Source of the DNA: a virus
Virus record (IMG/VR): IMGVR_UViG_3300009161_000212
Coordinates: 1-25,290 of that record
Direction: 5' to 3' (one strand)
Length of the DNA: 25,290 nt
This document shows positions 4,207 through 5,027 of the stretch, in pieces; positions within the stretch are counted from its first letter, which is position 1; each line of letters opens with the position of its first letter. The notes beneath the pieces were generated by a model that saw only the letters and a list, made by a program, of their open reading frames with translations, was not told the origin of the DNA and searched no databases. Both the position numbers and the translations under genes were made by a program.

Positions 4207-4220
4207 TTGCGCGGACGCAA
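4207..4220. promoter_or_regulatory. Operator-like palindrome, site 1
   Basis: The sequence TTGCGCGGACGCAA has perfect 5-base arms (TTGCG/CGCAA) around four bases. It lies just past the stop of the repressor-like gene and 52 bases upstream of the 82-residue gene. Three further copies lie within 275 bases. It is probably a binding site for the adjacent helix-turn-helix protein. Confidence 0.65.
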
Positions 4221-4223
4221 CAA

Positions 4224-4424
4224 CTATTTTTGCGGACACGCAAATTTCTTTTCGGCGCAAATCAACGCTTGGTACGTGCTGACGCTCGGAGTCTGCCCAC
4301 GTTCAAGAATGCGCCAGAGCGTGGTATGGCTCACGTCGGCTGCGCTGGCCCAGTCCTGAATGGTGACGTCCTGTTTAGCCAAGCGATCGCGGATTGCGCG
4401 GAGTTCGCGCTTAAAATCATGCAT
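4224..4424 (-). CDS. Small helix-turn-helix repressor-like protein (66 aa)
   Basis: ATG 4424-4422 is preferred over upstream starts because the extended N-terminus would be translated from the operator sites and has no domain character. The product is essentially one DNA-binding domain: RAIRDRLAKQDVTIQDWASA then AADVSHTTLWRILERGQTPS, a lambda-repressor/XRE-like helix-turn-helix with the recognition helix around SHTTLWRILERG. There is no C-terminal dimerisation or autocleavage domain, so it is closer in size to Cro than to full-length CI. Two palindromes lie just upstream and two overlap its 3' end or the gap after it, consistent with autoregulation and control of the downstream operon. That role is inference. 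Confidence 0.75.
   Translation of the reverse strand: MHDFKRELRAIRDRLAKQDVTIQDWASAADVSHTTLWRILERGQTPSVSTYQALICAEKKFACPQK
4230..4243. promoter_or_regulatory. Operator-like palindrome, site 2
   Basis: The sequence TTGCGGACACGCAA has perfect 5-base arms, extended by a further T/A pair to 16 bases. It overlaps the last codons of the repressor-like gene and starts 23 bases from site 1, about two helical turns. A lone half-site (CGCAA) lies at 4256-4260. Confidence 0.65.
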
Positions 4425-4445
4425 GGGCGGACCATGAGCACCGGA

Positions 4446-4459
4446 TTGCGTGGGCGCAA
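4446..4459. promoter_or_regulatory. Operator-like palindrome, site 3
   Basis: The sequence TTGCGTGGGCGCAA has perfect 5-base arms around TGGG. It lies 22 bases upstream of the preferred start of the repressor-like gene, where binding would block its transcription or translation. Confidence 0.65.
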
Positions 4460-4467
4460 GATTGGAG

Positions 4468-4481
4468 TTGCGCGGGTGCAA
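4468..4481. promoter_or_regulatory. Operator-like palindrome, site 4
   Basis: The sequence TTGCGCGGGTGCAA matches the other sites at nine of ten arm positions. It starts 22 bases from site 3, reproducing the spacing of the other pair (23 bases). No convincing -35/-10 pair could be assigned beside it. Confidence 0.6.
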
Positions 4482-4805
4482 TCGTTGTGCTGTTGACATC
4501 CTTTCAACCATTGGCATTGTCCAACCCGTCAGAGGGACCGAGGTCCCGCAGGTTTGAAACCCTGTGCTACATCGAAAGTGAGCTTTGCCGCCTGAGTGCC
4601 TACGGGCACACCCAAGTGTCCGAGGCTGTTCCCAAAGGAACGGAGTGGAAACTGGAGGGTGACGACAGCGCGCTTAGGCGTGGTGTCTTTACCCTTCGGA
4701 ACCGGGCTGAAACCCAAGGAACAAAGAGGAATCCGGGAACCTCAAGACCTTAAGGAAACCGGATAGTCCTTGGATGATCCCGAAATCCGTTTCGGGATGA
4801 TCCCT
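4482..4805. other. Gene-free stretch rich in inverted repeats; possible structured RNA or inserted element
   Basis: No convincing gene lies between the operators and the end of the Cys-rich gene. Many short perfect inverted repeats are visible: GGGACC/GGTCCC (4534-4547), GGTTT/AAACC (about 4551-4561), GTGCC/GGCAC (about 4597-4610), GTTCC/GGAAC (about 4628-4641), ATCCGG/CCGGAT (about 4731-4764) and the large hairpin at 4772-4803. Open frames exist on both strands (for example a TTG-started 62-codon frame at 4717-4529), but they have no domain character or junction support. It could be a noncoding RNA, an untranslated leader of the repressor, or a small interspersed repeat element. Confidence 0.45.
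4772..4803. other. Strong hairpin, 13-bp stem with one mismatch
   Basis: GGAT, a G-G mismatch, AT and CCCGAAA pair with TTTCGGG, AT and ATCC around a 4-base TCCG loop. The hairpin begins just past the 3' end of the Cys-rich gene (stop at 4806). No T tract follows on either strand, so it is not a standard intrinsic terminator; it may protect an RNA end or be part of a repeat element. Confidence 0.7.
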
Positions 4806-5027
4806 TCAAGCTTTGCGCGAAACCGGACACTCCTGAGGATGAGTCCACGGTGAAATTCTGTGAGCGCCACGCGGGCAGCCGTTGCGCGGATGGCAGCACC
4901 TGAACACCGATTCTTGGAACCACTCGCACGCTCCGCACATTTCCCGCGACGGGCCGATCACTCGACGGGTTGCGGTGACGGTCTCGCCCTGTGGTTGCCG
5001 GACCCGGCCTGTTACGCGGAATGTCAT
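4806..5027 (-). CDS. Cys-rich, probably zinc-binding small protein (73 aa)
   Basis: ATG 5027-5025 overlaps the stop of the ribbon-helix-helix gene as ATGA. The N-terminus is a short beta-like segment (MTFRVTGRVRQPQGETVTAT). It is followed by a cysteine cluster: CGAC at about residues 31-34, then CCHPRNGC and a late Cys in PQECPVS. This spacing suggests one or two zinc sites or a metal-binding knuckle. It forms a co-translated unit with the RHH protein and the zinc-ribbon frame upstream. Function is unknown; a role in early gene control or host takeover is only a guess. Confidence 0.7.
   Translation of the reverse strand: MTFRVTGRVRQPQGETVTATRRVIGPSREMCGACEWFQESVFRCCHPRNGCPRGAHRISPWTHPQECPVSRKA

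Follow-up and report, generated by a model that had tools for sequence, protein, structure and literature searches.

Two groups of phage RNAs provide the closest described comparisons for a gene-free segment beside a phage repressor gene. ROOL and GOLLD occur in phages and prophages, are elaborately folded and have no known function, and ROOL has several predicted pseudoknots; one ROOL example is 659 nt long, and many GOLLD RNAs exceed 800 nt and often lie near tRNA islands (PMC12286853). Others act by pairing: sar of phage P22 pairs as antisense with the antirepressor message, and c4 of P1 and P7 acts by antisense pairing (PMC12197685).

The locus described here is in a virus record of 25,290 bases that carries phage genes; this whole stretch is called the window. 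Between the repressor gene and a small Cys-rich gene lies a variable cassette, and we propose with moderate confidence that the phage has here, from 4483 to about 4771, an accessory gene for a noncoding RNA that is read on the plus strand and acts in trans. Such an RNA would be like ROOL and GOLLD in being phage-encoded and in its elaborate (here, predicted) fold. It would differ from the forms described in that source in its length (about 245-280 or 500 nt), its place beside a repressor and the lack of an Rfam family match. Like P22 sar and P1/P7 c4 it would be a phage-coded RNA tied to immunity functions; unlike those two, as that source presents them, the cassette resembles no other part of the window strongly enough for long antisense pairing, and it has no Rfam match at the gathering score.

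The phage and its close relatives

The genes for an exonuclease, RecT, a head protease, the portal and the large terminase are all on the minus strand of the window. A RecT search of viral contigs leads to 30 loci, including four close relatives (L002, L003, L004 and L005) that are 84-88% identical to the window over the parts compared. The window and these four are the five phages of the five-way alignment used below. Another locus, L047, belongs to the same phage record as L004, and its alignment to the window covers 12,587 bases.

The terminase has only weak relatives, with 20.9-23.7% identity for the 15 that were listed among 45 records. RecT has three relatives on genome contigs, from Sphingobium, Sphingomonas and Novosphingobium, with 41-42% identity, which may hint at the host. 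The integrase family PF00589 is found in none of 10 records, which may be fragments, and the control is found in 14 of 14; there is thus no sign of a temperate phage, as far as possibly fragmentary records can tell. ARAGORN also reports a tRNA-Arg (CCT) at 2841-2933 on the plus strand, inside the RecT gene of the opposite strand, which is possibly a false call.

A variable cassette between two conserved genes

The main features of the site, in window coordinates, are:

4224-4424 (start at 4424), minus strand: small HTH regulator (the "repressor"), 66 aa; the frame starting MHDF is intact in all five phages
4483-4759 (approximate), plus strand: variable cassette; 275 of 277 positions identical in L004, absent from L002, L003 and L005
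4772-4803, no strand assigned: shared hairpin, a possible two-way transcript end with no T run, in all five phages
4806-5027 (start at 5027), minus strand: Cys-rich 73-aa gene that runs towards the cassette; frame intact in all five phages

The earlier note had singled out 4482-4805 as a structured segment. The segment is real, and its edges need correction: the variable part is the cassette, from about 4483 to 4759, and the hairpin at 4772-4803 belongs to the shared flank.

The cassette occupies one site in two of the five phages, and both flanking genes are kept in all five. At 99.3% identity between the window and L004, it is the best-conserved 277-nt stretch of the 12,587 bases aligned to L047 (the next best has 97.1%), and its flanks diverge more, with 94% identity at 4429-4482 and 83-85% at 4760-4805. 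This high identity could reflect recent exchange rather than constraint. At the same site L002 has about 22 other bases, and L003 and L005 have about 106 nt (L003 5015-5120, L005 5000-5105) that are nearly identical to each other, unrelated to the cassette and not set apart from shuffles by their folding energy (z -0.42 and -0.10). The site looks like a swap point for noncoding DNA.

The 13-bp hairpin reported earlier is indeed present, with 13 of 14 pairs and the loop TCCG. It adjoins the Cys-rich gene in all five phages, with 13 of 14 pairs in four of them and 12 of 14 in L002, and its loops are TCCG, CAGA or CAAA. The terminator scan lists no site at this hairpin; it does list a terminator-like site within the predicted RNA (4669-4682, plus strand), which counts against an RNA gene. 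The 73-aa gene has at its 3' end a 16-nt stretch (4819-4834) with an 88% identical counterpart across the hairpin, at 4755-4770, and by eye the likeness extends about ten bases more.

Likely operators and a promoter-like start

Two further elements lie between the repressor start and the body of the cassette:

4446-4459 and 4468-4481, no strand assigned: pair of 14-bp palindromes, TTGCG-N4-CGCAA, likely operators, from a motif search
4493-4520, plus strand: promoter-like TTGACA-N16-CATTGT, with TG before the -10, as read from the sequence

The longer, 97-aa form of the repressor frame matches HTH_31 at E 0.00097, below Pfam's cut-off, and the weak PHROG matches are led by a family named repressor (E 0.0091). 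Allowing one mismatch, the window has four copies of the palindrome, with a pair at either end of the repressor gene; the second pair is at 4207-4220 and 4230-4243, the last site overlapping the 3' end of the gene, and within each pair the sites are 22-23 bp apart, start to start. L005 has palindromes at corresponding places, and two more one-mismatch sites elsewhere in its locus. Four sites in the window is within chance (16 of 100 shuffles have at least four), and it is the position of the sites at both ends of the repressor gene in the window and L005, not their number, that makes them likely operators. The repressor gene is thus likely a switch with two operator pairs.

The TTGACA (4493-4498) begins eleven bases past the last palindrome, and the candidate -10, CATTGT, follows 16 bases on; the latter is poor, matching the consensus at three of six positions, and a promoter scan with a stricter rule lists nothing at 4493-4520. 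Between the repressor start and the shared hairpin, TTGACA is present in the window and L004 and in none of L002, L003 and L005.

Predicted fold of the cassette

Folding calculations single out two elements:

4527-4771, plus strand: predicted structured RNA body of 245 nt from a presumed start; z -4.03, against -1.71 on the minus strand
4652-4699, plus strand: longest helix of the predicted RNA, 20 pairs, from pair probabilities

None of 200 shuffles is as low as the RNA body on the plus strand, and nine of 200 are on the minus strand. With the shared hairpin included, 4527-4805 on the plus strand has z -5.50 (again 0 of 200), and 4520-4880 has z -4.53 on the plus and -1.34 on the minus strand. 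Stretches of 180 nt were also scanned along the window, 340 in all, of which 336 lay on a grid and four were added by hand inside the segment. Its three lowest z-scores are all on the plus strand of the segment: -4.91 at 4620 (added), -4.49 at 4651 (the lowest of the 336 grid stretches) and -3.79 at 4520 (added); the lowest elsewhere is -3.56. Part of the signal is also present on the minus strand (-3.14 for the added stretch at 4620, -2.37 at 4651), and the plus-strand grid stretch at 4501 reaches only -1.48. The strand contrast is clear, yet incomplete. The cassette thus has structure beyond that of shuffles and stronger on one strand, the pattern sought for a noncoding RNA, with a weaker signal at 4620 on the minus strand.

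The closing pair of the 4652-4699 helix has probability 0.94 in the window, where an inner pair has 0.99, and 0.62 in L004. By our reading, four substitutions between the window and L004 that precede the shared hairpin lie within predicted helices: pairs are broken at 4566 and 4754, the pair at 4763 is kept as U-G, and the change at 4771, next to a 1-base insertion where a helix ends, cannot be placed. Having only two copies of the cassette, with two differences in 277 bases, counts against the RNA-gene reading.

The six short perfect inverted repeats that drew attention to 4482-4805 are there (stems of at least 5 bp, loops of 3-12), and their number is within chance: shuffles average 3.05 and have at least six in 48 of 500 cases, as do 47 of 250 stretches taken from along the window. 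There are two perfect complementary arms of at least 7 bp against 3.13 expected, which is no enrichment. The inverted-repeat count, being within chance in both comparisons, was dropped as evidence of structure.

The long form in L004

One feature separates the two copies of the cassette:

4609-4613, plus strand: site of 223 extra bases in L004, with ACC on either side, from the alignment with the window

In the long form, two crossing 9-bp helices can form, TTGAAACCC with GGGTTTCAA and GCCGCCTGA with TCAGGCGGC, the 3' strands adjoining each other. A crossing pair as good as this one arises in one of 200 shuffles; two perfect 9-bp arms of any kind arise in seven of 100, which counts against an RNA gene. 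Both 3' strands of this predicted pseudoknot lie within the 223 bases absent from the window, so either the window copy has been trimmed or the L004 copy has been enlarged. The long form is less far from its shuffles (z -2.35; its 5' part -1.86). An 11-pair helix of the window, 4598-4626, has pair probability 0.0 in the L004 fold, and forcing it costs 10 kcal/mol. The notion of an insertion or deletion in a conserved hairpin loop was dropped, the predicted L004 fold being without that hairpin.

Coding potential

The longest plus-strand frame in the window's cassette, from a GTG at 4487 to 4753 (88 aa), spans nearly all of it. Its first approximately 42 codons are open in both the window and L004, with one residue differing; the second half is unrelated in L004 because the 223-nt difference shifts the frame. 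On the minus strand, the repressor frame of L004 is open through the cassette (238 aa), and in the window the first start codon of that frame is at 4517 (97 aa). As these comparisons read, the longest cassette frames do not survive the 223-base difference.

Profile searches agree with the earlier statement that the segment holds no supported gene, as does the frame comparison with L004. Among the frames tried, the only Pfam match up to E 1 is the HTH of the repressor itself, within the 238-aa frame; PHROG gives two weak matches, at E 0.22 and 0.31, both to one minus-strand cassette frame. The 88-aa frame has no Pfam or PHROG match at E ≤1 in either phage, and tblastn with the window's version returns nothing at E ≤1 from 50,697 phage records. 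A codon-usage test was dropped as being without power here, the conserved 73-aa gene scoring like noise.

Searches for further copies and RNA families

No Rfam family matches the window at its gathering score. Up to E 10, the window stretch has three weak Rfam matches (best E 2.8) and the L004 stretch two (best E 2.6), and none is to a group I or II intron family in either form. The covariance models thus place neither form with ROOL, GOLLD or another Rfam RNA. The longest exact matches of the cassette elsewhere in the window are 12 bases (E 0.39) and suggest no long antisense pairing.

In viral contigs, exact words of 20-22 bases match only L004 (the window's own record may be left out of this set), as does a 19-base word of the L004 insert; one 21-base word finds nothing in genome contigs. 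Two looser words reach 11 further loci in viral contigs without convincing extended similarity. The loci L056-L066, considered as distant relatives, share only the searched words of 17-19 bases and weak extensions (best nhmmer results: L058 at E 0.069, L065 at E 0.24) and are taken as chance.

With blastn, the window stretch has no phage match at E 1e-5. Its matches at E ≤10, to 16 plasmid records (best E 0.1) and three phage records (best E 0.4), cover 5-7% of the query each and are likewise taken as chance. The L004 form has one phage match, at E 6, and none at E 1e-5 in plasmids or E. coli. Among the whole records of the 30 relatives, nine have some match at E ≤10; those below E 0.01 in L002, L003 and L005 are to the shared hairpin part only (query 460-501), and the L008 record has one 19-base piece at E 0.009. 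Two of five further records have matches, the best at E 0.015. The hairpin part of the query, 460-501, also matches twice in L004.

A covariance model, R1, returned from 42 sources without L004 the window's own match, two on its reverse strand (E 0.00023 and 1.1), and weak matches in L023 (E 0.073) and L024 (E 9.6); over 32 phage records it returned only L004. It matches none of 385 genomes of one class, chosen around the Sphingomonas genome behind L050. The cassette itself has no match at E 1e-4 in 398 genomes from the phylum of that same genome; as neither sample includes a genome known to match, these empty results show nothing by themselves. At E 1e-5 it is also missing from the 72,556 plasmids and the 5,426 E. 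coli genomes searched. It is found once in each of two phage records, the window and L004. The check for multiple bacterial copies that had been proposed earlier, by BLAST and covariance model, therefore came back empty for the genomes, plasmids and E. coli sampled.

Weighing the explanations

Three options had been offered for the segment: a phage noncoding RNA, a regulatory leader for the repressor, and a repeat element of host origin. The noncoding RNA fits best, given the plus-strand fold energy, the lack of a surviving frame and the promoter-like start beside the likely operators; the other two do not fare as well. We prefer an RNA gene because of the strand contrast, the lost frames, the promoter-like start and the placement between the operators and the shared hairpin. 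Its main rival is a relic or passenger: noncoding DNA of foreign origin, such as the remains of an intron or the end of a transposon, that the two phages recently exchanged and that is folded by ancestry but no longer works; the window copy would then be a 223-nt deletion of it. We regard this as possible, at a clearly lower probability. The 3-bp ACC repeat flanking the 223-nt difference and the loss from the window of the 3' strands of the L004 pseudoknot would suit a deletion, a near-identical cassette beside more diverged flanks fits recent exchange, and three relatives do without the cassette. Set against this, the lowest z-scores in the scan belong to the window form despite the 223-nt difference, Rfam offers neither an intron nor any other family except for weak matches up to E 10, and the searches give no real match elsewhere.

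The remaining explanations are far less probable. A REP- or MITE-like DNA repeat from the host, inserted beside the repressor, would account for inserted noncoding DNA at one site in two of five phages; we think it improbable, with a single copy per phage record, no match in the sampled genomes, plasmids and E. coli, and neither terminal repeats nor a target duplication seen by eye in the alignment. The genomes sampled need not include the host, so these results only weaken this reading. The cassette does lie upstream of the repressor gene, and the 238-aa frame of L004 and the window start at 4517 could suggest that the cassette serves the repressor on the minus strand, as a 5' leader or as an N-terminal extension. 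That idea fits badly with the weak minus-strand fold over the whole cassette (z -1.34 and -1.71), with likely operators between the cassette and the 66-aa start, with an extended frame not kept between the window and L004, and with three of five phages that keep the repressor and lack the cassette; we judge it very unlikely. So, too, a short plus-strand protein gene: the 88-aa frame is open through nearly all of the window's cassette and its beginning is open in both phages, and yet the frame shift and the empty protein searches speak against it.

A working model and its meaning

If the cassette is an RNA gene, its own promoter, with the TTGACA at 4493, would drive it on the plus strand, away from the repressor. 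The transcript would start near 4527 and end around the shared hairpin at 4772-4803. The resulting compact RNA would measure about 245-280 nt, or about 500 nt in the L004 form, where the extra 223 bases would allow a pseudoknotted 5' domain. The folded RNA would most likely act in trans during infection, and the neighbouring repressor operators may time its expression.

More tentatively, the cassette may be the first of a new class of RNA "morons" in phages. Such an RNA gene would be self-contained, bring its own promoter and sit next to the operator pair of a repressor; it would exist in two forms, one of 500 nt with a pseudoknot and one trimmed to 280 nt, and its folded RNA would be active in infection. 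It could also be a mere passenger. Phages carry folded RNAs of unknown use, and if this is an RNA gene, the cassette would be a convenient test case: phages with and without it can be set side by side that are otherwise about 84-88% identical where they were compared, and the natural 223-nt variant separates two possible domains of its RNA.
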